Notes under the pieces: model-generated
What the model was told of the DNA's origin: nothing
The model's input: only the letters and a program-made list of their open reading frames with translations
Database searches by the model: none
In this document: one piece after another, positions 1 to 63,482 of the stretch
Position numbering within the stretch: position 1 is the first letter of the stretch
Layout: each line of letters opens with the position of its first letter
Translations under genes and position numbers: made by a program
Assembly: GCF_004011835.1 (NCBI RefSeq)
Contig: NZ_RKLN01000003.1
Coordinates: 434,001-498,000 of the forward strand
Length of the DNA: 64,000 nucleotides
Reading direction: 5' to 3'
Origin: Rhodococcus spongiicola
GTDB lineage: Bacteria > Actinomycetota > Actinomycetes > Mycobacteriales > Mycobacteriaceae

Positions 1-585
1 GAGACCTTCCTCACCGAGGAACTGCCTGCCTACCTCGCGACCCGGGGCGTCTCCCGGTCCAACAACGCCGTCGTGGGTCTGTCGATGGGCGGCTCGGCCG
101 CACTGACGCTGGCGGCATACCACAAGGATCAGTTCAAGTTCGCGGGCTCCTTCTCCGGCTATCTCAACATCTCTGCACCCGGCATGCGTGAGGCGATCCG
201 TGTCGCCATGCTGGACGCCGGCGGCTTCAACGTCGACTCGATGTGGGGTCCGCCGTGGAGCACTGCGTGGCTTCGAAACGATCCGTTCGTCTTCGCCCCA
301 CTGCTTCGTGGGACCTCGCTGTACATCTCGTCCGGTAACGGCCTCATGGGCGAGTTCGACAACCCGGTCGGCTTCGTCGGATCATTCAACACCTCGACTG
401 CGATGGGCCTCGAGGCGATCGCATTGGCGAACACGAGGGCGTTCCAGCTGAAGATGGACTCGCTCGGCATCCCTGCGACATACGACTTCACCAATGCCGG
501 AACGCACTCCTGGGCGTATTGGGCCGAAGAGCTGTGGAAGGCACGCCCGCAGATCCTCCACGCCCTGAACGCTCAGTGGTCCTGA
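1..585 (+). CDS. Mycolyltransferase / antigen 85-type esterase, C-terminal part
   Basis: The frame is open from the first base, so this is the last 194 residues of a gene that starts upstream. It belongs to the alpha/beta-hydrolase esterase family of antigen 85 mycolyltransferases, which act outside the membrane and move mycolic acids between trehalose esters and arabinogalactan. The nucleophile motif GLSMGG is intact near residue 25 of the visible part, and GTHSWAYW near the end carries the catalytic His in the context typical of antigen 85. The signal peptide is outside the window. The final codons run into a 17-bp tandem repeat that crosses the stop. A simple secreted esterase of the same fold cannot be excluded. 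Confidence 0.85.
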   Translation, partial: ETFLTEELPAYLATRGVSRSNNAVVGLSMGGSAALTLAAYHKDQFKFAGSFSGYLNISAPGMREAIRVAMLDAGGFNVDSMWGPPWSTAWLRNDPFVFAPLLRGTSLYISSGNGLMGEFDNPVGFVGSFNTSTAMGLEAIALANTRAFQLKMDSLGIPATYDFTNAGTHSWAYWAEELWKARPQILHALNAQWS

Positions 586-631
586 ACGCCCAGTGGTCTT
601 GAACGCCCAGTGGTCTTGAACGCCCAGTGGT
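566..631. repeat. 17-bp tandem repeat crossing the stop of the mycolyltransferase gene
   Basis: Nearly four head-to-tail copies of a 17-bp unit (TGAACGCCCAGTGGTCT) start at 566, 583, 600 and 617. The second copy begins with the TGA that stops the gene. Later copies are almost identical to each other and lie outside the coding region, so the last codons plus stop have been copied downstream. Confidence 0.9.
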
Positions 632-645
632 GACGGGTGCGGCTG

Positions 646-1251
646 TCAGTTACCCCGCACCATGTCCACGAACAGACGGTGAACTCGGAGGTCGCCGGTG
701 ACCTCGGGGTGGAACGAGGTCGCGAGAACATCATCCTGCCGAACGGCCACGATGTGCCCCTCGGCGGGACCTTCCGGCACCCGCGCAAGCACGTCGACGC
801 CCGCCCCCGCCTGCTCGACCCACGGTGCTCGGATGAACACCGCACGCACTGGACCTCCGTCTATGCCGGCGAAATCCAGATCCGCCTCGAACGAGTCCAC
901 CTGACGGCCGAACGCATTCCGTCTCACGGTGATGTCCAGCCCGTTGAGGTGTTCGGCGTCCGGGCGGGTGTCGAGAATCTCGCTCGCGAGCAGGATCATT
1001 CCCGCGCACGACCCGTACGCGGGCATGCCGGCCTTCAACCGGGCGCGCAGTGGCTCGAGCAAATCGAAAACCGTCAGCAGACGACTCATAGTCGTCGATT
1101 CGCCGCCCGGAATCACAAGTCCATCCACGGATTCGAGCTCCGACACCCTCCGCACGCCGATGCCCCGCGCCCCACAGGATTCGACTGCCGCGAGGTGCTC
1201 ACGAACGTCTCCCTGCAAAGCGAGTACGCCGACGGTCGGTTGGTTTGCCAC
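646..1251 (-). CDS. pdxT: Pyridoxal 5'-phosphate synthase glutaminase subunit PdxT
   Basis: This is the glutaminase half of the PdxS/PdxT complex, which frees ammonia from glutamine for ring closure of pyridoxal phosphate by PdxS. The 201-residue product has the family hallmarks in order: [13 protein letters not shown] at the N-terminus, GGESTT oxyanion strand, AYGSCAGMI with the nucleophilic Cys, and SFHPEVTGD with the His-Glu pair. The GTG at 1251 was chosen because the family starts right before VGVLALQGD. An open frame continues upstream to 1596, but that part covers a 24-bp repeat and does not resemble PdxT. It sits in the order pdxS-tesB-pdxT, as in mycobacteria. Confidence 0.95.
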
Positions 1252-1326
1252 TGATGAAAGTCCTGAACTGCTCGACGCCTCTGACACGAAAACGTTATCA
1301 GCAGGCGCCCACGGTCCCGTTGCCCA

Positions 1327-1398
1327 CTGTCCGGCGGACACCATCCAGATCTGTCCGGCGGACACCATCCAGACCTGTCCGGCGGACAACATCCAGGT
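1327..1398. repeat. Three copies of a 24-bp tandem repeat between tesB and pdxT
   Basis: Copies start at 1327, 1351 and 1375 and differ at a few bases (core CTGTCCGGCGGACACCATCC). The core contains a small dyad, TCCGGCGGA. The array lies 76 bp upstream of the pdxT start and 29 bp beyond the tesB stop, so it would be transcribed if the two genes are cotranscribed. Confidence 0.9.
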
Positions 1399-2352: not shown

Positions 2353-2370
2353 AAATCGACCGGGTTCAGA

Positions 2371-3273: not shown

Positions 3274-3436
3274 AGCAAACTCCTGGGTTCTCGCCGGCTT
3301 CTGACGGTCTGGCGCCTACGGTTCCGCACGGCCCCGCAGTGCATTGGTGATTCGGTGCATTGGCAATTCTAGGACGCGGCGGCGACGGTCCCGATATCCA
3401 GTGCCGGGATAGCCAACCGCTGTGGCATGCGTCATA

Positions 3437-4453
3437 TCAGCGGATCGCGTGGACCTCGGGCTCCTCGTGACGAACGACCGCGAGATTCGCCTCGTCGAGC
3501 AGATCCGGCAGATCCTGCGGGTACACGGGTTCACCCTTCCGCTGTATCTCCCGGATCTCCGGCGCGGTGCACCAGCGATGTTCGGTGATCGTTTGCTGCT
3601 CGAATTCGGTGAAGCCGTCACGATGCGGCATGAACTCGTCGGTCCGTACCGCGAAGAACAACTCCTCGGACCGGATCAGCTCACCCGCGAACGGAAACAC
3701 CGCCACCCGCCGCCACAACGGGCCCCGCAGCGCTTCGGTAGGCACGGCCCGGCCGGTCTCCTCACGGATCTCGCGCACAGCCGCAGCGCGGAGTGTCTCA
3801 CCCGTCTCGACGGCACCACCGACGGTGAACCAGAACGCTGCCTCGGGTGTCTCGGGATCGTGCCCCCGCATCAGTAACACCCGACCGCTCTGATCGAGCA
3901 TCACGACCCGGGCCGACGTTCGAACCTCGTCGAGTTCCGGGCCTTGTGATTGGGTCCGCTCGGCAATCTCGAAGTACGTCGGCAGCGGTGCCGTTCCACC
4001 CAGGTGCAGCCACCGGACCGGACGCCGGGTACGCAGGGCGAGGGTGTCGCGCACAGCGTCGTTGTGGAACCGTCGAGCGATCAGCACACGCGCTTCGGCA
4101 TCCGCCAGCTCGGCGACCAGCTGCGGCGGGAGACTGGTGTTGTCGAGGGTCGTCAATGCCCCCGACAACGCATTCTCGGCCGCCTCACGTTGCGCGCGGT
4201 TCGCCCGTTCAGCCTGGTCAGCGAGCGCCGTCAGTCGTTTGCTTTCGATAGATGCATACGCCACGGACGACGCGATCGCCCGCACGACCACGGCCCTTCG
4301 CGCGAGCGCCGCATCGAGCGCCTGCCACGACAGATCGGAACGCACGTGCAGCCGGTCGAGTCGATTCGCACTCGCATACGCCCACGCACCCATCACCGCG
4401 ATCACGGCGGCGACGAACGCCACGATCAGAATCGTCAGGGCGGAGAAGGTCAT
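3437..4453 (-). CDS. Membrane-anchored LemA-like / NUDIX hydrolase
   Basis: This 338-residue protein starts with one hydrophobic segment (about residues 5-28). A LemA-like helical region follows, with ANRLDRLHVRSDLSWQALD near residues 28-48 and further helices to about 150. The C-terminal half is a NUDIX domain: GGAVETGETLRAA followed by REIREETG gives a complete NUDIX box. NUDIX enzymes cleave nucleoside diphosphates linked to another group; the substrate here is unknown. It overlaps pimA by 4 bp (ATGA), placing it last in the phosphatidylinositol mannoside operon, as Rv2609c is in M. tuberculosis. A CDP- or GDP-linked substrate is a guess from context. Confidence 0.8.
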   Translation of the reverse strand: MTFSALTILIVAFVAAVIAVMGAWAYASANRLDRLHVRSDLSWQALDAALARRAVVVRAIASSVAYASIESKRLTALADQAERANRAQREAAENALSGALTTLDNTSLPPQLVAELADAEARVLIARRFHNDAVRDTLALRTRRPVRWLHLGGTAPLPTYFEIAERTQSQGPELDEVRTSARVVMLDQSGRVLLMRGHDPETPEAAFWFTVGGAVETGETLRAAAVREIREETGRAVPTEALRGPLWRRVAVFPFAGELIRSEELFFAVRTDEFMPHRDGFTEFEQQTITEHRWCTAPEIREIQRKGEPVYPQDLPDLLDEANLAVVRHEEPEVHAIR

Positions 4454-11928: not shown

Positions 11929-12001
11929 GCGGATGTAGCGCAGCTGGTAGCGCATCACCTTGCCAAGGTGAGGGTCGCGGGTTCGAATCCCGTCATCCGC
12001 T
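11929..12001 (+). tRNA. tRNA-Gly (anticodon GCC), first copy
   Basis: Cloverleaf with acceptor GCGGATG/CATCCGC, anticodon stem TCACC/GGTGA and loop TTGCCAA giving anticodon GCC, T loop TTCGAAT, discriminator T. CCA is not encoded in this copy (CGA follows). An identical tRNA body is repeated at 12218. Confidence 0.96.
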
Positions 12002-12026
12002 CGAGAGGTTGGACTCGACCTTTTAT

Positions 12027-12097
12027 GGTGGAGTGGCCGAGTGGTGAGGCAACGGCCTGCAAAGCCGTGCACACGGGTTCGATTCCCGTCTCCACCT
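12027..12097 (+). tRNA. tRNA-Cys (anticodon GCA)
   Basis: Acceptor GGTGGAG/CTCCACC, anticodon loop CTGCAAA giving GCA, T stem ACGGG/CCCGT with loop TTCGATT, discriminator T. CCA is not encoded. It lies 25 bp after the first tRNA-Gly and 1 bp before tRNA-Val, so the three are probably cut from one transcript. Confidence 0.95.
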
Positions 12098-12098
12098 C

Positions 12099-12173
12099 GC
12101 GCGATTAGCTCAGCGGGAGAGCGCTTCCCTGACACGGAAGAGGTCACTGGTTCAATCCCAGTATCGCGCACCA
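12099..12173 (+). tRNA. tRNA-Val (anticodon GAC), first copy
   Basis: Acceptor GCGCGAT/ATCGCGC, D stem GCTC/GAGC, anticodon stem CTTCC/GGAAG with loop CTGACAC giving GAC, T loop TTCAATC, discriminator A and encoded CCA at 12171-12173. An identical copy lies at 12361. Confidence 0.95.
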
Positions 12174-12217
12174 AGTTTCGAGGCGGTATGCTGCCGAGGA
12201 GCTCGAGTGAACAACAT

Positions 12218-12293
12218 GCGGATGTAGCGCAGCTGGTAGCGCATCACCTTGCCAAGGTGAGGGTCGCGGGTTCGAATCCCGTCATCCGCTCCA
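12218..12293 (+). tRNA. tRNA-Gly (anticodon GCC), second copy
   Basis: The 73-base body is identical to the copy at 11929, but this copy has CCA encoded after discriminator T. Flanking sequence differs, so the duplication covers little more than the tRNA gene itself. Confidence 0.96.
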
Positions 12294-12320
12294 GGGTCGG
12301 CCCTCGAAAAGGCCGACCAC

Positions 12321-12346
12321 GAAGCCCCCAGGATTCTGGGGGCTTC
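12321..12346 (+). terminator. Hairpin between the second tRNA-Gly and the last tRNA-Val
   Basis: GAAGCCCCCAG (12321-12331) pairs perfectly with CTGGGGGCTTC (12336-12346) over a GATT loop. It has the form of a terminator but a tRNA gene follows within 15 bp, so it may end only part of the transcripts or serve as a processing spacer. Confidence 0.6.
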
Positions 12347-12360
12347 GCATGAAGAGACCC

Positions 12361-12435
12361 GCGCGATTAGCTCAGCGGGAGAGCGCTTCCCTGACACGGA
12401 AGAGGTCACTGGTTCAATCCCAGTATCGCGCACCA
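12361..12435 (+). tRNA. tRNA-Val (anticodon GAC), second copy
   Basis: Sequence identical to the copy at 12099 including the encoded CCA. It is the last gene of the cluster Gly-Cys-Val-Gly-Val and is followed at once by a strong terminator. Confidence 0.95.
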
Positions 12436-13968: not shown

Positions 13969-13977
13969 CCGGGCACA

Positions 13978-14156
13978 CCCGGACGGTGCCAACAGGTCCG
14001 ACCCGGACGGTGCCAACGCGTCCGTCCCGGACGGTGCCAACGCGTCCGACCCGGACAGTGCCAACGCGTCCGACCCGGACAGTGCCAACGCGTCCGACCC
14101 GGACAGTGCCAACGCGTCCGACCCGGACAGTGCCAACGCGTCCGACCCGGACAGTG
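13978..14156. repeat. 24-bp tandem array, seven full copies and one partial
   Basis: Copies begin at 13978 and recur every 24 bases to 14145, then a partial copy of 11 bases follows. The unit has the core CCCGGACAGTGCCAACGC. The first three copies carry CGG where later ones carry CAG; the last four full copies are identical, which points to recent expansion at that end. It fills the gap between the MFS stop and the GNAT start. There are no spacers, so it is not CRISPR. The array is open in several frames but is not judged coding. Confidence 0.92.
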
Positions 14157-14199: not shown

Positions 14200-14730
14200 G
14201 TGACGATTTCCGTGGACCGCGCCGGACTCTGGGACGCAGAGGCACTCGCTGACGTCGCTGCGGCGACCTTCCCGCTCGCTTGCCCACCGCACGCGACGAA
14301 GGAAGACATCGCAGCATTCATCGACAACGTTCTCTCGGTGGAAAAGTTCAGCGAGTACCTCACGGATCCGACTCGCACGGTCCTCAAGGCAACCAGCAAC
14401 GGTGAGATCGTGGGCTACGTGATGCTCATCGACGGCGCACCCGAGGACGAGGACGTCCGGTCTGCGGTGTCGCTGCTTCCGACAACGGAGATCAGCAAAC
14501 TGTATGTGCTGCCCGACAAGCACGGCGCGGGAGTATCTTCGGCACTCATGCATGCCGTGGTCGACTACGCGCGCAACGCGAACTGCGCCGGTGTGTGGCT
14601 GGGCGTCAACCAGGAGAACGAGCGTGCGCAAAGGTTCTACGTCAAGAACGGCTTCAAGAAAGTCGGCACGAAGACCTTCCAAGTGGGCGCGCAGACGCAC
14701 CACGACTTCGTGATGCAACGCAGCATCTGA
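14200..14730 (+). CDS. GNAT-family N-acetyltransferase
   Basis: The 176-residue product has the GNAT fold: KLYVLPDKHGAGVSSALMHAVVDYA carries the acetyl-CoA pyrophosphate loop (Q/R-x2-G-x-A type, here K-HGAGVS), followed by WLGVNQENERAQRFYVKNGFKKVG, the usual motif A/B end. GTG 14200 follows GAGGTGAGG at good spacing. The acceptor is unknown. Its place before a ZapE ATPase and a RibD-like gene matches Rv2669 in M. tuberculosis. The last six codons with the stop are repeated downstream. Confidence 0.9.
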   Translation: MTISVDRAGLWDAEALADVAAATFPLACPPHATKEDIAAFIDNVLSVEKFSEYLTDPTRTVLKATSNGEIVGYVMLIDGAPEDEDVRSAVSLLPTTEISKLYVLPDKHGAGVSSALMHAVVDYARNANCAGVWLGVNQENERAQRFYVKNGFKKVGTKTFQVGAQTHHDFVMQRSI

Positions 14731-14784
14731 AAGCAACGCAGCATCTGAAAGCAACGCAGCATCTGAATGCGAAACGGCATCTGA
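14713..14784 (+). repeat. 18-bp repeat of the last codons and stop of the GNAT gene, four copies
   Basis: ATGCAACGCAGCATCTGA (14713-14730) is the natural end of the gene (M-Q-R-S-I-stop). Two near-identical copies follow at 14731 and 14749, then a diverged one at 14767. All are in the same frame and each ends in TGA. Copies 2-4 lie beyond the first stop and are therefore untranslated unless read-through occurs. Confidence 0.95.
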
Positions 14785-24138: not shown

Positions 24139-24225
24139 CGCGCTCCATGCTGCCATGACGCCGCGCCGGGGCGGAATCGGCGCGCCTCCACCGCGCTACC
24201 AGGTGCGGCGTCTAACGTCCGCGGT

Positions 24226-26603: not shown

Positions 26604-26690
26604 TCCCCCCCAGCCGGTTGATCCCCAGAGGAAGGACGTCCCAGCGCAGACCCGGGCTTGCCCCGCCAAACCCACGTAGAGTTTTTGGCT

Positions 26691-34804: not shown

Positions 34805-34810
34805 CAGCCT

Positions 34811-34842
34811 TTACCCGACGCTCGGATTACCCGACGCTCGGG
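34811..34842. repeat. 16-bp repeat crossing the dxs stop
   Basis: Two copies of a 16-bp unit (plus strand TTACCCGACGCTCGG plus one base) start at 34811 and 34827. On the dxs strand each reads as the codons for P-S-V-G followed by TAA. The copy at 34827-34842 encodes the true end of Dxs; the other lies just beyond the stop. Confidence 0.93.
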
Positions 34843-36767: not shown

Positions 36768-37143
36768 CGAGATCGCTCCCTCCAGCAAGTTCACGGACTG
36801 TCACGCAACAGCCCGGCAAGTCTACGGAGCGACCGGATGCGGCACCCAACGGCCTCTGAACCGAGCGCGCCGAGGCACCCGATCGCACAACCCAGACTGT
36901 TCGATCATCTTACTGTTGCTCCTCGCCGAGGTAGCCGACGAGTTCGTCACGTCGGTCACAAGAGGGTCGATCCGGAGGCCGAACGATCCGGATGTCAGAC
37001 GATCGTGATGTCATCTGGGGCGCGGACACCGCCCGCGAAAAGCAATTGCGCCGACCCGACCGATCCGACAGTCTGGGACAGCGATCGAGTTGCGACTTCA
37101 TTCACACCAGACCGACCTCGTACACACCAGACCAGGGGGGCCG
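36768..37143. other. Divergent intergenic region between dxs and the ABC transporter
   Basis: No gene is recognised. TAAGAT on the minus strand (36907-36912 on the plus strand as ATCTTA) could be the dxs -10 box, leaving a 5' leader of about 135 bases. CGATCCGG is repeated at 36968 and 36984, and GATGTCA at 36991 and 37007, with 16-base spacing. ACACACCAGACC-like sequence repeats with a 20-base period at 37103 and 37123 just before the ABC start. Confidence 0.4.
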
Positions 37144-38987: not shown

Positions 38988-38993
38988 CCCCAG

Positions 38994-39053
38994 GAGACGG
39001 AGCTGGCCCTGCAGACGGAACTAGCCCTGCAGGCGGAACTAGCCCTGCAGACG
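38994..39053. repeat. 18-bp tandem repeat after the ABC permease
   Basis: Three copies of an 18-bp unit (core CAGACGGAACTAGCCCTG) start at 38994, 39012 and 39030, and six bases of a fourth follow. The array begins 7 bp after the permease stop. Confidence 0.9.
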
Positions 39054-39077
39054 TGCCCAGGCCCTGCGAACGTGGCG

Positions 39078-39107
39078 GTGGCCCACTACCGAACGGTCGT
39101 GGGCCAC
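39078..39107. terminator. Hairpin between convergent ABC permease and DHA2 exporter genes
   Basis: GTGGCCCAC (39078-39086) pairs with GTGGGCCAC (39099-39107). It lies between two convergent genes, 91 bp after the permease and 22 bp after the exporter stop, so it can end both transcripts. Confidence 0.65.
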
Positions 39108-39128
39108 TGTTCATCCCTGTTCCTGCCG

Positions 39129-40811
39129 CTAGACCTTGACGGTTTCGGTGGCAGCCTCACTCCGCTCACCGACCACAGCAGGCTCCTGCTCACCGACCTC
39201 GGCGGTCTTCTGCTCACCGGCCTCGGCAGGCTCCTCGACGTCGATCGTCGTCCGTAGCGGCGCGTTCGGAATCAGGATCACGCAAACGAGCGTGATCACC
39301 GCGAACAGGCACGCAACCAGGAACAACCGTCCCGTCGCGTCGCCGTACGCGGTGCGGATGATCATCGCGATCGGCGCGGGCAACGCATTCAGATCGAGAT
39401 TGCCACCGCCCGCCGACTGAGTGTCGATTCCGAGGCGGGCGAAGCCCTCGGCTGACAACGTCGTGACGCGGGACGCGAGGATCGACCCCAGGACCGACAC
39501 CCCGATCGCGCCACCGAACGTGCGGAAGAACGCGATCGAACTACTCGCGGCACCGATGTTCTTGACACTCACGGTGTTCTGTACGGCAAGCACCAGGTTC
39601 TGCATCAAGCAGCCGACGCCGACGCCGACAACTGCGATGTAGACGCCCACCAACTCCAGGCTGGTGGCGTGATCGATCGTGGAGAGCAGACCGAATCCGA
39701 TCACGAGCAGGGCCGCGCCTGCGACGATGAACGGCTTCCACTTTCCGAAACGGGTGATCAGCCGACCCGAGCCGATCGAGGCGATCAGCATGCCCGCCAC
39801 CATGGGAATGGTCAGGAAGCCGGCGATGGTCGGGCTGTGACCACGCGCAGTCTGGAAGTACTGGCCGAGGAAAGTCGTCGCACCGAACAGGCCAACACCG
39901 ACAGCTACCGAGGCGATGATTGCCAGGCCGGTGGTCTTCTCGGTGACGATGTGCAGCGGGATGATCGGCGACTTCGCCTTGGTCTCGACGATCACCATTG
40001 CGATCAGCAGCGCCACGCCGACCCCGACGTACAGCGCGGACTCCTTGGAGATGAAGTCGTAGTACCCGGCCTTGCCGGCGAACGACACCCAGATCAACAG
40101 GACGCTGACGCCTGCGGCGAGCAGCGTAGCGCCCAACCAGTCGATGGAGACGTCGTCCTTGCGCTCGGTCGGGATTCGAAGGGTGCGCTGCAGCAGGATG
40201 AGGGCAACCACTGCGAGCGGCAGGCACACGAAGAAGCACCAACGCCAGCCGAGTGGGCTGTCGACGATCACGCCACCGAGGAGCGGGCCACCCGACATCG
40301 ACACCGCCATCGCGGCACCGGTGTACCCGGCGTAGCGGCCGCGGTCGCGCGGCGGGATGATGCTCCCGATGATCGCCACTACCAGCGCGGTCACGCCGCC
40401 CATGCCGATGCCCTCGACGACGCGCCCCGCCAACAGGACCGGGACGTTGTGGGCGAAACCGGCGATGCCCGTCCCCACGACGAAGAGCACGATGGCGGTC
40501 TGGACGAGGACCTTCTTGTTGAACAGGTCCGCGAGCTTCCCCCAGATCGGGGTCGACGCCGCGTTCGCGAGCAGCGCTGTGGTGATCACCCACGCATACT
40601 GCGTCTGGGAGCCTTTCAGGTCCCCGATGATCGTAGGCAGTGCCGTGGTGACGATCGTCGTGCTGAGCAGCGCGGTGAACAGCGCCGCGATGAGGCCTGC
40701 GAGGACCTCTAGGATCTGGCGATGGGTCATCGCCTCGTGGCCGTCGGCCGTCCTGCTCTCCCCAACTGATGTCACCCCAACCGAGGTCGTCGCTGGTGCT
40801 GATCTCTTCAT
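39129..40811 (-). CDS. DHA2 (14-TMS) MFS drug exporter
   Basis: The 560-residue protein is a 14-helix MFS antiporter of the DHA2 family (EmrB/QacA-like). LSTTIVTTALPTIIGDL and NAASTPIWGKLADLFNKK are the helix 1 and loop 2-3 motifs, and VVEGIGMGGV and GPLLGGVIVDSPLGWRWCFFV contain the antiporter motif C. It likely pumps toxic compounds out with protons. ATG 40811 follows GGGAGAACAC. The acidic C-terminal tail repeats GEQ/E-P motifs. It is downstream of a MarR gene on the same strand, which probably controls it. Confidence 0.93.
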   Translation of the reverse strand: MKRSAPATTSVGVTSVGESRTADGHEAMTHRQILEVLAGLIAALFTALLSTTIVTTALPTIIGDLKGSQTQYAWVITTALLANAASTPIWGKLADLFNKKVLVQTAIVLFVVGTGIAGFAHNVPVLLAGRVVEGIGMGGVTALVVAIIGSIIPPRDRGRYAGYTGAAMAVSMSGGPLLGGVIVDSPLGWRWCFFVCLPLAVVALILLQRTLRIPTERKDDVSIDWLGATLLAAGVSVLLIWVSFAGKAGYYDFISKESALYVGVGVALLIAMVIVETKAKSPIIPLHIVTEKTTGLAIIASVAVGVGLFGATTFLGQYFQTARGHSPTIAGFLTIPMVAGMLIASIGSGRLITRFGKWKPFIVAGAALLVIGFGLLSTIDHATSLELVGVYIAVVGVGVGCLMQNLVLAVQNTVSVKNIGAASSSIAFFRTFGGAIGVSVLGSILASRVTTLSAEGFARLGIDTQSAGGGNLDLNALPAPIAMIIRTAYGDATGRLFLVACLFAVITLVCVILIPNAPLRTTIDVEEPAEAGEQKTAEVGEQEPAVVGERSEAATETVKV

Positions 40812-40838
40812 AGAAGTGTTCTCCCACACTGATCGGCT

Positions 40839-40892
40839 GCTAGTGGTGCGGATGCTGCTAGTGATGCAGATACTGCTCGTGATGCGGCTCCG
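40839..40892. repeat. 18-bp repeat crossing the marR stop
   Basis: Three degenerate 18-bp copies start at 40839, 40857 and 40875. On the marR strand they read PHHEQY, LHH-stop-QH and PHH-stop-QP. The gene ends at the stop in the middle copy (40858-40860). Confidence 0.8.
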
Positions 40893-41340
40893 GGCGGACC
40901 GTGAGCGAGTCGGTGAGTCGTTCGATGGTCGACAACGCGGCCACCACTTCTTCGTGGCTCCATCCGGCGAGCAGTCTGCGCAGACGCGCGGACCTGCGTT
41001 CATTCGTGGTGCGCAGAATCTCTTCCCCCTCGACCGAGACCTGCACACGGAACGCCCGCTTGTCGTGGGGGTCCGAGCGTCGCTCGACGAGGCCGGCGTC
41101 GACCAATTCGCTCAACTGTCGACTGAGCGCCGACTCGCTCACGTGCAGAACCGACGCGAGCTCGTTCTGGCGACACGGGCCATGAACGGACAACACGAAC
41201 AGCACTCCGGCCAGGGCGGGGGCGATCGGATCGCCCTCACCACTCTTGATCGCGCATTTGAGTGACCGCCCGAAGAGGAAGATCGCGTCGACCAGCCCCT
41301 GAACGGGATCAGCCTGAACGGGATCTGCCTGGACGGTCAT
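40858..41340 (-). CDS. MarR-family transcriptional regulator
   Basis: The 160-residue protein has the MarR winged helix: CRQNELASVLHVSESALSRQLSELVDAGLVERR is the helix-turn-helix and HDKRAFRVQVSVEGEEIL the wing. Residues 4-13 are a QADPV-QADPV duplication from a 15-bp repeat at 41299-41328. It lies 46 bp upstream of the DHA2 exporter gene and is probably cotranscribed with it. A 20-bp palindrome at 41380-41399 is the likely operator. The ligand is unknown. Confidence 0.93.
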   Translation of the reverse strand: MTVQADPVQADPVQGLVDAIFLFGRSLKCAIKSGEGDPIAPALAGVLFVLSVHGPCRQNELASVLHVSESALSRQLSELVDAGLVERRSDPHDKRAFRVQVSVEGEEILRTTNERRSARLRRLLAGWSHEEVVAALSTIERLTDSLTVRPEPHHEQYLHH

Positions 41341-41379
41341 CGGATACCCCGAATCCTCAATAAGGGTTACTTGCAGATC

Positions 41380-41399
41380 GCAACTATATACTTAGTTGC
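41380..41399. promoter_or_regulatory. Probable MarR operator over the promoter
   Basis: GCAACTA-TATACT-TAGTTGC is a perfect 7-bp dyad with a 6-base centre. On the minus strand the centre and right arm supply a TATA-like -10 element, about 40 bases upstream of the marR start. A second partial copy, TTGCAGA, lies at 41371 and TTGCAGAC at 41396. This fits autorepression of marR and the exporter. Confidence 0.65.
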
Positions 41400-41514
41400 A
41401 GACGTTAAGCAATTGCTTCCGCGAAGCGACCCGGATATGGGTGGCCACGACCTGGCGAATCGGGCTGATCCCAGGCCCTGGATGTGACCAGGACCACCTA
41501 CAACGTGCGCGAAC

Positions 41515-44901: not shown

Positions 44902-44955
44902 ACCGACGGCATTCCGTCGGTCCCCGAAGCGAGAAATGTCCCCGAAGCGAGAAAT
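44902..44955 (+). repeat. Hairpin and 18-bp tandem repeat upstream of ceoB
   Basis: ACCGACGG-CATT-CCGTCGGT (44902-44921) can form an 8-bp stem. Directly after it GTCCCCGAAGCGAGAAAT occurs twice without a gap (44920-44937 and 44938-44955). Both lie in the ceoB leader; the second copy ends 11 bp before the start codon. Confidence 0.85.
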
Positions 44956-44966
44956 GGAGAGGACGG

Positions 44967-48394: not shown

Positions 48395-49312
48395 CTAGAG
48401 CCCGAGTTGCTGCATCGCCGAGCCCGACTCACCGCGACGTGGCGGCTCGGGCCTGTTCTGCGGCTGTTGCGGCTGCTGTACCTGTTGTGGTTGCTGTCCC
48501 TGCTGCGGCTGCCGTCCCTGCTGCGGCTGCTGTCCCTGCTGCGGCTGCTGTCCCTGCTGCGGCTGCTGTCCCTGCTGCGGCTGCTGTCCCTGCTGCGGCT
48601 GCTGTCCCTGCTGTGCGGCTTGCTGGGCCGCTGCCTGCTGCTGGGCCGCCGCCTGCTGCTGGGCCGCCGCGAGCTGCTCGGCGAGCGCCTGTGGCAGAAC
48701 GACCGGCAGCGGGGTCCGCACGGGGTGCGGATCGTCGCCGCGCCTCACAACCGTGTCGTCCAGGACGGTCCGCGCAATCTCCACGAGCGGCGAACCGACC
48801 GCGACGTTGCCGGACGGGCCGGCGACTACGCACCGGATCATCCAGCGGGGCCCCTCCACGCCTATGAACCGGAGATCCGCGTTCTGCGTCACACCGACAA
48901 CCTCACGGCCCCACGGCCCGCTCTCGATGCCGACCTCCGCGTTGTCGCCTCGGAGCGACTCCGCCAGCTCGGACGCCACCTCGCGCCACTGTCCCGGAGA
49001 CTTGGGCGCAGCGTAGGCGGAGACGGTGATGCGACCGAACTGGGTGACCAGGTGGACCGCCTGCGGTGTTCCGTCAGGCGACATCTCCACCTGAAGCTGG
49101 GCCCCCTCGGGGATCGGGAACAGCACCGAACCGAGGTCCAACCGAGTCGCCGCCGGCTCCACTCCCTCGGGGAGATCACTCACGTCGTAAGGGCCACCTT
49201 CGACGTCATCGAAGGGGACATCGAGTCCGGAGCCGTCCGGGGCATCGACCTCCTCGACGTACTCCGACACCTGCCCAGGAGCGGTGCCCTTCTTCTTCCG
49301 ACGTCCCAACAT
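48395..49312 (-). CDS. DUF3710 protein with a Gln-rich repeat tail
   Basis: The 305-residue protein has the DUF3710 domain (about 45-205), marked by RLDLGSVLFPIPEGAQLQVE, QFGRITVSAYAAPKSPGQWR and FIGVEGPRWMIRCVVAG, as in Rv2696c next to dut. The C-terminal third is Ala/Gln-rich and then has GQQPQQ repeated about seven times (18-bp units at 48483-48608). The tail is likely disordered. Function is unknown. ATG 49312 is 3 bp after the dut stop, so the two are cotranscribed. Confidence 0.88.
   Translation of the reverse strand: MLGRRKKKGTAPGQVSEYVEEVDAPDGSGLDVPFDDVEGGPYDVSDLPEGVEPAATRLDLGSVLFPIPEGAQLQVEMSPDGTPQAVHLVTQFGRITVSAYAAPKSPGQWREVASELAESLRGDNAEVGIESGPWGREVVGVTQNADLRFIGVEGPRWMIRCVVAGPSGNVAVGSPLVEIARTVLDDTVVRRGDDPHPVRTPLPVVLPQALAEQLAAAQQQAAAQQQAAAQQAAQQGQQPQQGQQPQQGQQPQQGQQPQQGQQPQQGRQPQQGQQPQQVQQPQQPQNRPEPPRRGESGSAMQQLGL
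48483..48608. repeat. 18-bp coding repeat, seven copies
   Basis: The 18-base unit (TGCTGCGGCTGCTGTCCC on the plus strand) repeats seven times from 48483 to 48608. The first two copies are diverged and the last five identical. It encodes GQQPQQ in DUF3710 and keeps the frame, so copy number could vary without harm. Confidence 0.92.
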
Positions 49313-53824: not shown

Positions 53825-55207
53825 GTGGCAGCCACCGAAATGCGTCAGACCGCAGATTCCACTCCCGAATCAGCGACCACTGAATCCACCGCCGAGGCGA
53901 CTGCCAATAGCGCGCCCGCCGCCAAGAAGGCACCGGCGAAGAAGGCCGCCGCCAAGAAGGCACCGGCGAAGAAGGCCGCCGCCAAGAAGGCACCGGCGAA
54001 GAAGGCGGCGAAGAAGACCGCCGCCAAGAAGACTGCTGCCAAGAAGACCAACGCCAAGGCCACCACCAAGGCGGAGAAGCCAAGCGATGACGGCGCCGAG
54101 CAGGACGACATCGACATGGCCGAACTCGACGTCGCCGCCGGAGAGCTCATCGACGAGGAGGTCGTCGTCGAGGGTGACGAGGAGACCGCCGAGCCGTCCG
54201 AGAAGGACAAGGCGTCCGGCGACTTCGTTTGGGACGAGGAGGAGTCCGAGGCGCTCCGCCAGGCCCGCAAGGACGCCGAGCTCACCGCTTCCGCCGACTC
54301 GGTACGCGCCTACCTGAAGCAGATCGGCAAGGTCGCGCTGCTGAACGCCGAGGAGGAGGTCGAGCTCGCCAAGCGCATCGAGGCCGGTCTGTTCGCGACC
54401 TACAAGCTGGCAGAGACAGCCGAGAAGGGCGAGAAGCTCTCCCCGACGGATCGCCGGAACCTGAGCTGGATCCACCGCGACGGCAACCGCGCGAAGAACC
54501 ACCTCCTCGAGGCGAACCTTCGTCTGGTCGTCTCGCTCGCCAAGCGCTACACCGGACGTGGCATGGCCTTCCTGGACCTGATCCAGGAAGGCAACCTGGG
54601 CCTGATCCGTGCCGTCGAGAAGTTCGACTACACCAAGGGCTACAAGTTCTCGACCTATGCCACGTGGTGGATCCGCCAGGCGATCACGCGCGCGATGGCC
54701 GACCAGGCCCGCACGATCCGTATCCCCGTCCACATGGTCGAGGTCATCAACAAGCTCGGCCGCATTCAGCGCGAGCTGCTTCAAGATCTGGGCCGTGAGC
54801 CCACACCGGAAGAGCTCGCGAAGGAAATGGACATCACGCCGGAGAAGGTGCTGGAGATCCAGCAGTACGCGCGTGAACCCATCTCTTTGGACCAGACGAT
54901 CGGAGACGAGGGCGACAGCCAGCTCGGTGACTTCATCGAGGACTCCGAAGCAGTCGTCGCGGTCGACGCTGTCTCGTTCACACTGTTGCAGGATCAGTTG
55001 CAGTCGGTACTCGAGACGCTCTCCGAACGCGAGGCCGGTGTCGTGCGCCTGCGGTTCGGTCTCACCGACGGCCAGCCGCGAACCTTGGACGAAATCGGCC
55101 AGGTCTACGGCGTGACACGTGAGCGGATCCGCCAGATCGAATCGAAGACGATGTCGAAGCTGCGTCACCCGTCGCGTTCGCAGGTGCTGCGCGACTACCT
55201 GGACTGA
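53825..55207 (+). CDS. sigA: Principal RNA polymerase sigma factor SigA
   Basis: The 460-residue sigma-70 factor drives housekeeping transcription. Regions are intact: 1.2 ([16 protein letters not shown]), 2 ([49 protein letters not shown]), 3 and 4.2 ([20 protein letters not shown]). The N-terminal ~150 residues are a Lys/Ala-rich then acidic extension, containing three [10 protein letters not shown] repeats (30-bp units, 53921-54010). GTG 53825 follows AAAGGG. TACAAT at 53720-53725 may be a promoter -10. An 11-bp repeat follows the stop. Confidence 0.97.
53921..54010 (+). repeat. 30-bp in-frame repeats in the sigA N-terminal tail
   Basis: Three tandem 30-bp copies encode [10 protein letters not shown] at residues 33-62. 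They are nearly identical at base level, more alike than codon degeneracy requires. The pattern resembles Lys/Ala tails of actinobacterial nucleoid proteins such as HupB. Confidence 0.85.
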
Positions 55208-55217: not shown

Positions 55218-55239
55218 TAGCTAGCAAGTAGCTAGCAAG
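55218..55239. repeat. 11-bp tandem repeat after sigA
   Basis: TAGCTAGCAAG occurs twice without a gap (55218-55228, 55229-55239), starting 11 bp after the sigA stop. CAAGAC/GCAAGACC variants follow to about 55275. Confidence 0.8.
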
Positions 55240-57010: not shown

Positions 57011-57067
57011 GGTTCAACGTTAGCGCCATGAGCCGACGCAACCACCAATACCCCCGGAATTCCCGAC

Positions 57068-57097
57068 GATGCCGACCCGACCGATGCCGACCCGACC
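57068..57097. repeat. 15-bp tandem repeat after the DUF952 gene
   Basis: GATGCCGACCCGACC occurs twice without a gap (57068-57082, 57083-57097), 9 bp beyond the DUF952 stop on the minus strand. Confidence 0.9.
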
Positions 57098-57106
57098 GGA
57101 GCCCGC

Positions 57107-57520
57107 TCACTCCAGCGGCGCAAACACCCCGGTCGCGTCGGGCTGGTAGTCGGCTACCTCGATGACCGAGTCCGTTGGCAACGCGCCGTACAGGTGCGGG
57201 AATCTCATCGACGGGGGGTCCGATGGGGACCCGGGCTCCCAGCGAACGTCGGCACCGAGTAGGTCCGGATCCAGATGCAGAAGCACCAAGTCGCGCCGGC
57301 CCGCGAAGAGTCGGTTGGCGGGGAGGTGGACCTGCTCGGGCGTGGACAAGTGCACGAAGCCGTCGGTGGCGAATCCGGCCGGGATGCGCTGGCCGTCCCG
57401 CTGCGCGGCCACCCACTCGTCCTTGGTGCACATGTGGACGAGCCGCCGTCCGGGTCCGCTCGTGGGCGGTTCGCTCGAGGGCGGTTCGCTCGAGGGCGGT
57501 TCGTTCAAGGGCGCCGACAT
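57107..57520 (-). CDS. DUF952 family protein
   Basis: The 137-residue protein has the DUF952 fold seen in plasma-protein-like small domains: RLVHMCTKDEWVAAQRDG, GFVHLSTPEQVHLPANRLFAGRRDLVLLHLD and FPHLYGALP. Function unknown. ATG 57520 follows GGGGAGGG. Residues near 8-22 repeat PPSSE because of a 15-bp tandem repeat around 57466-57510. The 3' end also abuts a repeat. Confidence 0.87.
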   Translation of the reverse strand: MSAPLNEPPSSEPPSSEPPTSGPGRRLVHMCTKDEWVAAQRDGQRIPAGFATDGFVHLSTPEQVHLPANRLFAGRRDLVLLHLDPDLLGADVRWEPGSPSDPPSMRFPHLYGALPTDSVIEVADYQPDATGVFAPLE

Positions 57521-57968: not shown

Positions 57969-57976
57969 TGTGTTTC

Positions 57977-58030
57977 TGCAGACAGTGCTCATGCAGACAG
58001 TGCTCCTGCAGACAGTGCTCCTGCAGACAG
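57977..58030. repeat. 15-bp tandem repeat between convergent genes
   Basis: TGCAGACAGTGCTCC-type units start at 57977, 57992 and 58007, with a partial fourth at 58022. It lies 9 bp after the DUF7455 terminator and 49 bp beyond the helicase stop. Confidence 0.9.
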
Positions 58031-58078: not shown

Positions 58079-59815
58079 CTACCACTGACGCAGCATCGCG
58101 ATGCGGTCGGTGAGTTGCTCGACGGTGGCGATCGCTGTCGGCGGGCCACCGCACATCCGGCGCAGTTCACCGTGAATGACGCCGTGCGGCTTGCCGGTCC
58201 GATGATGATGCATCGCGACAAGGGAGTTGAGTTCGCGCCGCAGACTCGCGAGCTGCCCGGCGGCCGCGACTCGCTCGGTGACCGCCTGCGCCGCCGGGAC
58301 GGCCACCGGTTCCGAGGCTGCAGCAGACTTGTCCAGCTGCTTCTGCTGCCGCTGCCGCAGCAGAGCCCGCATCTGCTCGGCATCGAGCAGCCCGGGCAGA
58401 CCGAGGTAGTCGGCCTCCTCGTCGGATCCGGAAAAGGTAGCCGTGCCGAAGGAAGAGCCGTCGTAGATCACCTGGTCGAGCTCGGCGTCGGCGCCCAGGG
58501 ACGTGAACGCCTTCTCCTCCTCGCCGGGTTCGTCCTCCTGCTTGTTCGCGGCAGCCAGCAGGACGTCGTCGAGCCCATCCTTCTCCCGGTGCGGCTTGCC
58601 GAGGACGTGGTCGCGCTGAGCCTCGAGCTGGCTGGCGAGGTCGAGCAGAATCGGGACGGACGGCAGGAACACGCTCGCCGTCTCTCCCTTGACCCGAGAA
58701 CGCACGAATCGACCGACGGCCTGCGCGAAGAACAACGGGGTCGACGCGCTCGTGGCGTAGACACCGACGGCCAGCCTGGGCACGTCGACGCCTTCGGACA
58801 CCATGCGCACCGCGACCATCCATTTCTGGGTGCTCTCGGAGAACTCGGCGATCCGGTTGGACGCAGTCGGGTCGTCGGACAGGACCAACGCCGGTGCCTC
58901 GCCGGTGATCGCCTCGAGCCTGCCGGCGTAGGCGCGGGCCGCTGCCTGGTCGGTGGCGATCACCAGCCCCCCGGCGTCCGGCATCCCACCGGCACGCAGC
59001 TGACCGAGACGCGTGTTCGCGGCGGTGAGCACCGACGGGATCCAGTCACCGGCCGGGTCGAGTGCCGTGCGCCAGGCTCGGGCCGTCTGCTCCGCGCTGA
59101 GCGGCTCACCGAGGCGGGCGGCGAACTCCTCGCCCGCGCTGTTGCGCCAGCGGGCCTCACCGGAATACGCCAAGAACACGACCGGACGGACCACACCGTC
59201 AGCAAGGGCGTCGGCGTAGCCGTACGCATGGTCCGCCTTCGAACGCATGTGGCCCTCGTTGTCAGGCTCGTACGTCACGAAGGGAATCGAGCTGTCGTCG
59301 CTGCGGAAGGGTGTTCCGGTCAAGGCGAGCCGGCGGGTGGCGTCGCCGTACGCCTCGCGAATCGCCTCACCCCAGCTCTTCGCGTCGCCGCCATGGTGGA
59401 TCTCGTCGAGAATCACCAAGGTGCGGCGCGCCTCGGTTCGGGCGCGGTGTTTGAACGGGTGAGACGCGACCTGCGCATAGGTCACGACGACGCCGTCGTA
59501 GTCCGACGAGGTCTGACCCGTCGAGTTCGAGAAGCGCGAGTCCAGGGCGATGCCGATGCCTGCGGCCGCCTCGGCCCACTGATGCTTGAGGTGCTCGGTC
59601 GGGGCGACCACGGTGATCTGGTCCACAGTGCGGTCTCGCAACAGCTCGGACGCGACCCGAAGAGCGAACGTGGTCTTGCCTGCGCCCGGTGTGGCAACAG
59701 CGAGGAAGTCCCGCGGCTTGGTTGCCAGGTACTTCGTCAGAGCGCGCCGCTGCCACCCGCGTAGCAAGTTGGTGGGAACAGGTGCACGATCGAGACTTCC
59801 GGGTTCAGCGCTCAC
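58079..59815 (-). CDS. DEAD/DEAH-box helicase
   Basis: The 578-residue protein is a superfamily 2 helicase. Motif I is ATPGAGKTTF, motif II LVILDEIHHGGD, motif III LALTGTPFRSD and motif VI AVGRFVRSRVKG; the middle contains VSEGVDVPRLAVGVYATSAST. The C-terminal part (after about 400) is specific to actinobacterial members. Role in DNA or RNA metabolism is not defined. GTG 59815 is preferred, near the conserved start of the helicase core; the frame stays open to 60010 without a good start. Confidence 0.87.
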   Translation of the reverse strand: MSAEPGSLDRAPVPTNLLRGWQRRALTKYLATKPRDFLAVATPGAGKTTFALRVASELLRDRTVDQITVVAPTEHLKHQWAEAAAGIGIALDSRFSNSTGQTSSDYDGVVVTYAQVASHPFKHRARTEARRTLVILDEIHHGGDAKSWGEAIREAYGDATRRLALTGTPFRSDDSSIPFVTYEPDNEGHMRSKADHAYGYADALADGVVRPVVFLAYSGEARWRNSAGEEFAARLGEPLSAEQTARAWRTALDPAGDWIPSVLTAANTRLGQLRAGGMPDAGGLVIATDQAAARAYAGRLEAITGEAPALVLSDDPTASNRIAEFSESTQKWMVAVRMVSEGVDVPRLAVGVYATSASTPLFFAQAVGRFVRSRVKGETASVFLPSVPILLDLASQLEAQRDHVLGKPHREKDGLDDVLLAAANKQEDEPGEEEKAFTSLGADAELDQVIYDGSSFGTATFSGSDEEADYLGLPGLLDAEQMRALLRQRQQKQLDKSAAASEPVAVPAAQAVTERVAAAGQLASLRRELNSLVAMHHHRTGKPHGVIHGELRRMCGGPPTAIATVEQLTDRIAMLRQW

Positions 59816-61475: not shown

Positions 61476-61583
61476 GAAACCATGATGCCGCACATCAGCG
61501 CACCAGCGTCATATGCGGCCCCACTGTCGTATGGAGCCGCACCGTCATGTGCATTTGACTTCCGAAGGTGCAACAGTAGAACC

Positions 61584-61940
61584 ATGGCAAGAACTTCGGG
61601 GTTCGGCGAGAATGCCGAGAGCGGTACACCTCGCCACCCGGCGTTGATCACCGAGGCTGCCCAGTCCATCGAGGATCAACACCGGGCGCGCGTCAGGAAG
61701 TACCTGACGATCATGTCTTTCCGGATCCCGGCCTTGGTTCTCGCAGCGATCGCGTACGGCGCTTTCGGGAATCCCTGGATCTCGGTGGGCATCATCGCAG
61801 TGTCCATTCCGCTGCCCTGGATCGCTGTCCTCATCGCAAATGACAGGCCTCCCCGGTCGAAGGACGAGCCCAGCCGGTACGACCACCGCGACGCAGCCCG
61901 CGCGCTCGAGTCCCGGATGCACCGCACCATCGACGGCTGA
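61584..61940 (+). CDS. DUF3099 membrane protein
   Basis: The 118-residue protein has HPALITEAAQSIEDQHRARVRKYLTIMSFRIP and then two hydrophobic segments (about 43-60 and 65-85), the DUF3099 pattern (Rv2709). Function unknown. ATG 61584 is used, and a divergent DUF3039 gene lies 108 bp upstream. Confidence 0.87.
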   Translation: MARTSGFGENAESGTPRHPALITEAAQSIEDQHRARVRKYLTIMSFRIPALVLAAIAYGAFGNPWISVGIIAVSIPLPWIAVLIANDRPPRSKDEPSRYDHRDAARALESRMHRTIDG

Positions 61941-61983
61941 CTCGCCGGGCCGTCTGCTCGCCGACGGCTGCGACAATGCTCGG

Positions 61984-63462
61984 GTGAATCGTGACCTCCT
62001 GCTGTCCATCTGTGGTCCGCTACGCGACGCGCTGACGCGCACGCGGTACGACATCGACTCGATCGTCGACCTCCTCGGCGTCGACGCGCACGCGGCACTC
62101 GGAAGATACGAGCCTGTTCCCGTCCGCAGAGCCAGTGAGAACGGCGGCGAACTCGGCCAGCTGGTCCGGCTGTTCCTTCTGGGCGACGACTGCCCGGCGG
62201 CCGACGTCGCGACTGCGTTGCGGCCGCTCGACCTCGACGCCGCGGTTGCCGCAGGCCTGCTCTCCCGCGATAACGACACCGTTCGCGCCGAGCTGGACCT
62301 GCGACCCCTCGATCTGGGCAGCGGAAACCGGTGGACGTTGGCCGACCTCGACGGCGCAATGCGTCCCCGCGAGAGCGGCGACGACCACGTCATCGGCGTC
62401 GGAGAGGCGTCGCTGTCACTGCTACGGGGTACCCCGACCCGCCCGGTCGGCACCGTGCTCGACGTCGGTACCGGATGCGGAATCCAGGCACTACGTGCCG
62501 CCGACTATGCAGGCAAGGTCACCGTCACCGACATCAACCCACGTGCCCTGGCGCTCACCGCCGCTACCGCGGCGCTGAACGGACTCGACTTCGAGATCCT
62601 CGAGGGATCGTGGTTCGAACCCGTGAGCGGCCGGCGTTTCGACCAGGTGGTCGCGAATCCGCCGTTCGTAGTCGGTGAGGCACGCGTCACACACACCTAC
62701 CGTGATTCCGGTCTGAACCTCGACGGGGCGAGCGAGTTGATGATCTCCGGTGCCGTCGACTATCTCGAGCCCTGTGGCACGGCGGCGCTGCTCGCGTCGT
62801 GGCTGCATGTCGACGGTGAGGACTGGCGTCAGCGGGTCGCGTCGTGGCTACCGGCGCACGGGATCGACGCCTGGATCGTCCAACGGGACGTCGCCGATCC
62901 CGCCCTGTACGTCGGGACGTGGCTACGCGACGGCGGGTCGGACCCCCGGGACCCCGCCGTGGAAGCGCGCGCGAATGCGTGGCTCGACCATCTCGAGGGG
63001 GCGGACGTCGTGGGCATCGGATTCGGATTCGTGTACCTGAGACGCACGGACGCGCCGTCGGACATTCTGTGTGAGGACCTCCGTCACGGCTTCGACGATC
63101 CACTCGGCGACGAAGCTCTCGCGTACTTCGATCGCCTCGCGTGGCTCCGCGACAACGACGTCCTTTCGGCGCGGTTCGAGGTCCGGACCGAGACGGCACT
63201 CGAACGGGTATATCTGCCCGACGAGGACGGCTGGCGCCAGGTGGTGGCGCGGGTGCACCGCGGCCACGGGCCGCGGTGGCAGCACGAGGTCGACGACCTC
63301 GCTGCGGCCCTACTCGCGGGGATGCGCCCCAACGGGTTGCCGTTGGAAGACCTCGTCACGCTTCTCGCGTGCGCACACGACGAGGACGAAGAATCACTCG
63401 CGGCCACGGCCGTACTGCTGGTCCACTCCCTTGTTCGACACGGCCTGATCGAACCGGCCTGA
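61984..63462 (+). CDS. SAM-dependent methyltransferase with an N-terminal helical domain
   Basis: The 492-residue protein has an N-terminal helical domain of about 120 residues and then a SAM fold: VLDVGTGCGIQALRAADYAGKVTVTDIN (motif I) and VANPPFVVGEA with the NPPF catalytic motif of N-methyltransferases such as PrmC/HemK and RsmC. It probably methylates an amide or base nitrogen of protein or RNA; the target is open. GTG 61984 is used. The stop is formed inside a 14-bp tandem repeat. sigB follows. Confidence 0.85.
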   Translation: MNRDLLLSICGPLRDALTRTRYDIDSIVDLLGVDAHAALGRYEPVPVRRASENGGELGQLVRLFLLGDDCPAADVATALRPLDLDAAVAAGLLSRDNDTVRAELDLRPLDLGSGNRWTLADLDGAMRPRESGDDHVIGVGEASLSLLRGTPTRPVGTVLDVGTGCGIQALRAADYAGKVTVTDINPRALALTAATAALNGLDFEILEGSWFEPVSGRRFDQVVANPPFVVGEARVTHTYRDSGLNLDGASELMISGAVDYLEPCGTAALLASWLHVDGEDWRQRVASWLPAHGIDAWIVQRDVADPALYVGTWLRDGGSDPRDPAVEARANAWLDHLEGADVVGIGFGFVYLRRTDAPSDILCEDLRHGFDDPLGDEALAYFDRLAWLRDNDVLSARFEVRTETALERVYLPDEDGWRQVVARVHRGHGPRWQHEVDDLAAALLAGMRPNGLPLEDLVTLLACAHDEDEESLAATAVLLVHSLVRHGLIEPA

Positions 63463-63482
63463 TCGAACGCGGCTGGTCGAAC
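63441..63482 (+). repeat. 14-bp tandem repeat creating the methyltransferase stop
   Basis: CGGCCTGATCGAAC occurs at 63441-63454 and 63455-63468, with a diverged third copy at 63469-63482. The unit is not a multiple of 3, so the second copy is read in another frame and supplies the TGA at 63460-63462. Confidence 0.9.

Follow-up and report, generated by a model that had tools for sequence, protein, structure and literature searches.

Short head-to-tail repeat arrays, many of them at or just past the 3' ends of genes, punctuate the 64,000-nucleotide stretch of Rhodococcus spongiicola DNA analysed here (hereafter the window), which covers 434-498 kb of the 727,511-base contig C23. Young and specific to the lineage, the arrays are short tandem duplications, many of which came from single-copy local sequence. 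Their placement largely tracks where insertions and deletions (indels) in general survive, and the pattern in intergenic gaps mostly needs no targeting; arrays seem to gather at gene ends mainly because duplications do little harm there and not because they are aimed there. They are probably young tandem duplications placed by survival and made by a homology-free process that favors 14-18 bp. The source genome (G000) is a 3.97 Mb draft in 29 contigs from a member of the Rhodococcus equi (Prescottella) group, and a 701-residue protein encoded in the window has Prescottella defluvii and P. equi (93 and 94%) as its best named relatives. We compared it with its nearest relative in the set, G004 (3.7 Mb), and with 12 other congeners with bigger genomes (4.4-5.8 Mb), using one genome per species throughout. 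G004 is collinear with contig C23 over its whole length, at 92.2% identity over 648,631 aligned bases, in an alignment that leaves out inter-anchor segments longer than 1.5 kb.

Tandem Repeats Finder (TRF) called 31 arrays in the window at a period of at least 8 and a score of at least 40, as opposed to 5, 3 and 3 in shuffled sequence; at a score of at least 50 the counts were 24 versus 0, 1 and 1 in the same three first-order Markov shuffles. A first-pass annotation of the window had listed 13 short tandem duplications near gene 3' ends, and TRF recovered 12 of them to within a few bases of the listed coordinates. The thirteenth, a weak stop-crossing case at 26601-26634, was not called even at a score of 30. 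Two arrays described as internal, 38113 and 48483, are also present, the second at 48464-48613, and each is in frame. Thus the duplications at gene ends are real, but the list was selective. Thirteen of the 31 window arrays lie inside called genes, 11 of which had gone unlisted, as had the noncoding arrays at 3339, 24912, 36968, 44920, 57453 and 57726. Most of the arrays reported to cross a stop were found by TRF, but that at 24798-24829 holds no in-frame stop and precedes a TAG. The units differ from locus to locus, as had been remarked, and a dispersed element could be rejected, for they are unrelated beyond chance: 48 of 3,160 pairs of noncoding units share at least 8 bases (38 expected from shuffled units) and 5 pairs have at least 10 bases in common (3.2 expected). 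Overall, the observation is sound and its earlier interpretation half right, in that a local duplication process is supported and an aim at gene ends is mostly unneeded.

The youth of the arrays is apparent from the comparison with G004. Contig C23 carries 80 noncoding arrays. At the orthologous position in G004, an array is missing for 48 of them, present with the same period for 23 and present with a different period for 4, and the other 5 lack close anchors; for the 17 in the window, the corresponding numbers are 12, 4, 1 and 0. The reverse comparison gave a similar partition, with 26 of 53 noncoding G004 arrays having no array in the source genome, 21 having the same period, 4 another period and 2 being unplaced. 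At 564, 1327, 24798, 34811, 38113 and 44920, the two to four units of the window correspond to just one in G004, whose alignment to the window is interrupted at several arrays. The 29-contig draft state of the source genome could raise the suspicion of an assembly artefact, an explanation we regard as negligible, given that the units of an array differ by point changes, that the independent G004 assembly has an array of matching period for 23 of the 80 noncoding ones, and that arrays are also present in the single-contig genome G016.

The first-pass annotation had proposed, as one reading, that the 3' ends of genes are the target of a duplication or repair process driven, for instance, by stalled transcription or replication-transcription conflict. 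The local nature of such a process is borne out locus by locus; its targeting is not shown, and other indels are biased in a similar way. Arrays are indeed commoner near stops than elsewhere in gaps, as targeting predicts: in gaps of up to 600 bp in G000 and G004, 69 of 102 are closer to a stop and 33 closer to a start, even though stop-side sequence amounts to 54.6 kb and start-side sequence to 75.6 kb (p = 2e-7 by length). However, larger indels unrelated to arrays split in the same way (77 stop-side, 43 start-side; p = 0.67 for a difference from arrays). Over nine classes of gap sequence, the array counts fit the small-indel rate (p = 0.14), whereas length (p = 2e-7) and substitution rate (p = 0.001) were rejected as predictors. 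The stretch 1-25 bp past stops has 1.56 arrays and 21.2 small indels per kb and 13.5% substitutions, compared with 0.20 arrays and 4.5 small indels per kb and 7.0% substitutions 1-25 bp upstream of starts. Indels beside arrays were kept in this stop/start profile (per-kb classes) and removed from the stop-side/start-side split and from the edge densities described below. Arrays also occur in gene cores (118 in 1,028 kb), and one, at 44920-44956, is a counter-example to stop targeting because it precedes a called start. What had appeared as gene-end targeting becomes, on this evidence, mostly an effect of survival.

Arrays that cross a stop follow from the same principle. A duplication whose first copy contains the stop would leave the protein unchanged whatever the length of the unit, and stop-crossing duplications can survive in this way; the geometry of the first-copy stop explains the crossing. 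This gives a simple rule, namely that a tandem duplication with the stop in its first copy is invisible to the protein. By TRF borders, the stop falls in the first copy in 31 of 39 array-stop pairs from G000 and G004, and at most of the array loci of the window the proteins of the two genomes end at the same residue or about one residue apart. Because three placement nulls gave different answers, we relied more on edge densities, measured where the gap after the stop is at least 20 bp long and for arrays reaching at least 5 bp past the stop. Array starts are about equally frequent on the two sides: the 5' edge falls within the last 30 bp of the gene for 30 stop-passing arrays (22.8 kb), and 35 arrays start 0-30 bp after the stop (22.6 kb). 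In 15-base steps, starts of stop-passing arrays amount to 1.23 per kb from 30 to 15 bases before the stop and 1.40 per kb from 15 to 0, and array starts past the stop to 1.93 and then 1.16 per kb; no 5' edge lies 30-45 bp inside the gene (11.4 kb). Small indels, on the other hand, drop at the stop, with 21.2 per kb after it but 2.6 and 1.7 per kb inside the gene. For arrays crossing a start, 4 were observed against 23.1, 13.0 and 6.7 expected under uniform placement, placement weighted by small indels, and weighted placement with the coding part limited to one unit, respectively.

Several points weigh against placement by survival as a full account. The absence of edges 30-45 bp inside genes is partly forced, as only long arrays could start there and still reach the stop, and the stop falls in a later copy in 8 of the 39 array-stop pairs, including 3 of the 5 in the window (TRF borders). 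Of 133 noncoding arrays, 32 cross a stop, which matches the indel-weighted null (35.9 +/- 5.4) and exceeds the uniform null (20.9 +/- 4.5) and the weighted null with at most one coding unit (15.7 +/- 3.8). Stop-crossing arrays are also unevenly distributed between the two genomes, with 27 in G000 (605 genes) versus 10 in G004 (567 genes). Small indels away from arrays number 299 stop-side and 225 start-side, a bias slightly below that of the arrays that leaves a small residual (p = 0.048). Within coding sequence, over equal lengths, 32 arrays fall in the zone 30-90 bp before stops and 15 in that 30-90 bp after starts; this 3' bias is unmatched by small indels, which occur at 0.25 per kb in both zones. 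Further, the genes of the contig were called with our own codon-usage script and are uncurated; gene starts are approximate and some genes were missed, such as the DUF3000 gene at 24220-25140. The residual over small indels, the stop-crossing excess over two of the three nulls and the intragenic asymmetry all speak for a process directed to 3' ends, and the last leaves room for modest targeting or for a greater tolerance of protein C-termini. Set beside the similar bias of larger indels, the fit to small-indel rates and the arrays in gene cores and before a start, they leave targeting of gene ends quite unlikely as the explanation of the pattern.

Selection of the arrays for a function, as back-up stops or as terminators, is very improbable. 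In its favor, the array at 14715-14767 has a spacing of 18 bp that keeps the copied TGAs mutually in frame. We rejected a design for back-up stops because there is no preference for in-frame spacing, found in 13 of 32 stop-crossing arrays and in 47 of 101 other noncoding arrays (p = 0.68). Nor is it easily reconciled with the 48 of 80 noncoding arrays that have no counterpart array in the nearest relative, or with the locus at 24798, where the frame misses the stop used in G004. The proposed link to termination fared no better. The units of 126 arrays fold no better than matched gap sequence (mean of -5.5 versus -5.6 kcal/mol; p = 0.53), which led us to discard duplication of terminators or hairpins as a candidate, and a promoter and terminator scan of 34700-41400 returned 3 terminator-like sites against 2.0 expected.

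The lengths and junctions of the duplications carry information about how they are made. Among noncoding indels between G000 and G004, tandem copies account for 4 of 222 at 4-10 bp, 4 of 31 at 11-13 bp, 13 of 65 at 14-18 bp, 4 of 32 at 19-26 bp and 1 of 44 at 27-60 bp; the fraction at 4-10 bp is near chance, which is 0.05-1.6% (measured at lengths 5, 6, 8 and 10). Perfect noncoding pairs are similarly concentrated, with 7 at 10-13 bp, 32 at 14-18 bp and 6 at 19-32 bp. At the junctions of 30 noncoding two-copy pairs, 0, 1, 2, 3 and at least 4 extra bases are shared by 17, 7, 2, 1 and 3 pairs, compared with 15.6, 8.7, 3.6, 1.4 and 0.7 expected if homology had no role, so that the 24 pairs with 0-1 base are at chance level. 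In coding sequence, 17 of 25 two-copy pairs share 0-1 base. A nick-site motif at the duplication edges was considered and rejected, as a search yielded at most 0.14 bits over 70 pooled edges. From these spectra, we infer that the duplications are made by a process that prefers 14-18 bp and needs no microhomology.

One competitor for this step is ordinary slippage during replication, primed by short direct repeats and requiring nothing special. Slippage is the likely mode of copy-number change in arrays that have already formed, and some of the data are what it would leave behind. At the 63441 locus, G009 already has an imperfect pair when judged by eye, and at least 4 junction bases are shared in 3 of the 30 noncoding and 5 of the 25 coding pairs, the latter counting against uniformly blunt junctions. 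Perfect noncoding pairs of 6, 7, 8 and 9 bp number 81, 17, 9 and 6, above the 49.7, 9.0, 6.0 and 1.0 of shuffled sequence, which weakens the claim that the short-length range is empty. Counts from genes likewise tell against a valley at short lengths: of 58 genic indels of 4-10 bp, 5 are tandem copies (4 of the 22 in the 8-10 bp range), versus 11 of 34 at 14-18 bp. Nevertheless, direct repeats at the duplication edges, the hallmark of microhomology-primed slippage, are lacking in most pairs, and the narrow length preference together with junctions mostly free of microhomology disfavors primed slippage as the source; we consider it unlikely as a complete explanation. End joining of staggered breaks, or ligation of flaps, fits the duplications better as a candidate cause. 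It is the length preference and the bluntness of the junctions that merit further attention.

Staggered double-strand breaks, filled in and then joined by Ku and LigD, would make two-copy seeds that would then grow by slippage or unequal recombination. Both features expected of end joining were found, namely junctions without microhomology and a host with Ku and LigD, matches to which are present in G000 and G004 alike. We tentatively favor joining of staggered breaks by Ku and LigD as the best candidate for the duplication step, while giving it somewhat less than an even chance. The distribution of arrays across genomes tells against these proteins as a sufficient cause. Four congeners with Ku and LigD (G002, G007, G009 and G013) have few arrays, with 1 perfect noncoding array in 320 kb (56 kb of it noncoding), whereas G000 and G004 together have 45 in 1,410 kb (p = 7e-6 per noncoding base, or 0.002 without the poorly called G009), and three genomes that lack Ku still have 6 in 800 kb. 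Thus Ku and LigD are not sufficient and Ku alone is no explanation. The Ku-bearing G016 and G021 have 12 perfect noncoding arrays in 400 kb, and in sets not sorted by Ku the counts were 5 for Rhodococcus-type loci (533 kb) and 21 for other actinobacteria (993 kb). The G000/G004 lineage is therefore richer in arrays than those four congeners, yet not unique.

A second route to local duplications would start from 5' flaps that escape removal at Okazaki junctions or in repair patches; their ligation would duplicate the flap sequence, in analogy to FEN1-type mutants. This mechanism would naturally yield duplications of flap length, with both a lower and an upper size limit. Its appeal is reduced by the 5'-nuclease family, which has two matches per genome, in open frames, alike in G000, G004 and the 12 congeners. 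Flap-type duplications also have flanking homology, and most pairs here have none. On balance, flap ligation is a doubtful source of the arrays.

The lineage itself may also have changed. In two-copy pairs scored by one rule, at most one extra base is shared in 24 of 37 from G000 and G004 versus 12 of 34 elsewhere (p = 0.018), and unit lengths of 14-18 bp make up 33 of 45 versus 19 of 38 in the Rhodococcus-type, other actinobacterial, G016 and G021 sets, where the spread is broader. An obvious loss of repair genes was rejected as a candidate; Ku, LigD, RecC, the large subunit of exonuclease VII, the PolA/FenA nuclease family and NucS are all matched in both genomes. A difference was noted for Y-family polymerases, whose strongest match in 8 of the 12 congeners (165-173 bits) is missing in G000 and G004. 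These two have instead a 143-bit match (G000:C28:14783-15214; G004:C17:449643-450074) in a 372-aa frame. It is conceivable, if on the unlikely side, that the G000/G004 lineage gained a distinct chromosome-wide process of homology-free tandem duplication centred on 14-18 bp, with a changed supply of breaks or changed end processing (such as the Y-family polymerase difference) as its cause and gene ends merely recording it.

In their structure, the arrays resemble bacterial minisatellites or variable number tandem repeats, which have the same head-to-tail units of about 10-30 bp, shift in copy number between relatives and are in many cases intergenic. No essential difference separates the two, other than the abundance here of young arrays of two to four copies and the narrow unit length. 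Head-to-tail units of roughly 9-100 bp, as in minisatellites, are found in the 12 of 13 gene-end cases called by TRF, and copy number differs between relatives, as in the 48 of 80 noncoding arrays with no array in G004. The arrays are ordinary bacterial minisatellites in the making. Dispersed intergenic repeats such as palindromic units, MIRU and STAR elements place one sequence at many loci. They are likewise intergenic; the units described here are, by contrast, unrelated between loci. For palindromic units, the repetition of a single sequence across many loci is described in PMC2884548. In a study on mouse cells, classical nonhomologous end joining at double-strand breaks with protruding ends makes tandem duplications (PMC5730883). 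These are alike in being short and local and in deriving the duplicated segment from protruding ends, but they are mammalian and nuclease-induced, whereas the process proposed here is inferred from natural bacterial sequence. Insertions in rice have been ascribed to patch-mediated double-strand breaks (Vaughn and Bennetzen, 2014, as cited in PMC7407515 and PMC5730883). They too are natural tandem-duplication insertions, put down to nicks on both strands, though in a plant genome. Among the open-access titles listed, we found neither gene-end targeting of such repeats nor blunt bacterial duplications of 14-18 bp. With their narrow length and blunt junctions, such duplications could allow bacterial end joining to be tested on natural genomes, and close pairs of actinobacterial species give a readable spectrum of tandem duplications.

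The individual arrays of the window illustrate the range of contexts; a Pfam scan of 20 frames assigned a family to 16. Among those that overlie a gene end, the array at 564-631 (+ strand; 17 bp, 4.0 copies) covers the end of an esterase-like gene (open reading frame end at 585) in a convergent gap. The current stop is a TGA within the second unit, one codon past the last Trp of the protein in G004, which has one unit and whose own stop directly follows that Trp. The array at 14715-14767 (+; 18 bp, 2.9 perfect copies, degenerate to 14784) spans the stop of a GNAT gene (14200-14730), which is in the first copy, and the protein end is identical in G004. In a convergent gap of 22 bp, the array at 34811-34841 (-; 16 bp, 1.9 copies) spans the DXP synthase stop codon (gene at 34827-36794, -) and is a single unit in G004, G007, G002 and G009. 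The one at 40836-40887 (-; 18 bp, 2.9 copies) lies over the end of a MarR-type gene (40858-41340, -), where G004 has two units and the G000 and G004 proteins terminate in different frames. The array at 63441-63490 (+; 14 bp, 3.6 copies), the locus with the imperfect pair in G009, covers the stop of a methyltransferase-type gene (61984-63462, +). The array at 24798-24829 (+; 16 bp, 2.0 perfect copies; single copy in G004) is inside the DUF3000 frame, where it abuts the TAG. The duplication shifts the frame, which then continues to 25140. As a result, the DUF3000 frame is about 100 codons longer than in G004 and the predicted protein has a species-specific C-terminal tail. A further array at 24912-24941 (+; 15 bp, 2.0 perfect copies), absent from the earlier list, has no array in G004.

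Other arrays lie shortly after a stop. Those at 1327-1396 (-; 24 bp, 2.9 copies) and 3339-3369 (-; 16 bp, 1.9 copies) are 32 bp past the stop of an acyl-CoA thioesterase gene (1428-2249, -) and 68 bp past the end of the gene at 3437-4453 (-), respectively; G004 has about one unit at the former and shares the array at the latter. The array at 13977-14156 (+; 24 bp, 7.5 copies) follows the stop of an MFS gene (13968), at a place where G004 has a longer degenerate segment. The orthologous gap of G013 holds an array of 24 bp and 2.4 copies with a partly similar unit, and because of this corresponding array the place may have borne one for long. No array is found in G004 at 38995-39053 (+; 18 bp, 3.3 copies), 8 bp past the stop of an ABC-2 permease gene (38987), at 55218-55239 (+; 11 bp, 2.0 perfect copies), 11 bp past the stop of a sigma-70-type factor gene (55207), or at 57062-57098 (-; 15 bp, 2.5 copies), 9 bp past the stop of a DUF952 gene (57107, -). 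The array at 57976-58030 (-; 15 bp, 3.7 copies) is 49 bp past the stop of a helicase-type gene (58079-59767, -), and the G004 locus has a 15 bp array of a different consensus. The remaining arrays are not at gene 3' ends or are in frame. That at 44920-44956 (+; 18 bp, 2.1 perfect copies; one unit in G004) lies between divergent genes and 11 bp upstream of where a TrkA-type gene is called to start, and that at 57453-57513 (-; 15 bp, 4.1 copies), also new to the list and partly shared with G004, is in the N-terminal part or upstream of the DUF952 gene. The in-frame array at 38113-38142 (+; 15 bp, 2.0 copies; one unit in G004) is near the C-terminus of an ABC ATPase, and that at 48464-48613 (-; 18 bp, 8.3 copies) is inside a called gene (48395-49270, -). 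Repeats of 30 bp and 15 bp also occur at 53916-54058, in the N-terminal part of the sigma-70-type factor, with copy numbers that differ in G004, G009 and G007.

Along the contig, the density of arrays (score of at least 50, period 10-40) is 24 in the window, whereas each 64 kb of the first 384 kb has 6-9, and bins downstream of the window are nearly as rich, with up to 9 arrays per 32 kb. In the source genome, the stretch of C23 at 386-642 kb has 6-11 arrays (score of at least 50) per 32 kb, compared with 2-6 in the first 386 kb, a trend that is less clear in G004. The GC skew of the contig changes sign near 160-195 kb, possibly a replication terminus. A search of the window with Rfam returned six tRNAs and nothing else. 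A tRNA run at 11929-12435 reads Gly-Cys-Val-Gly-Val; with Gly(gcc) and Val(gac) both present in two copies, it looks as though a short segment was duplicated.

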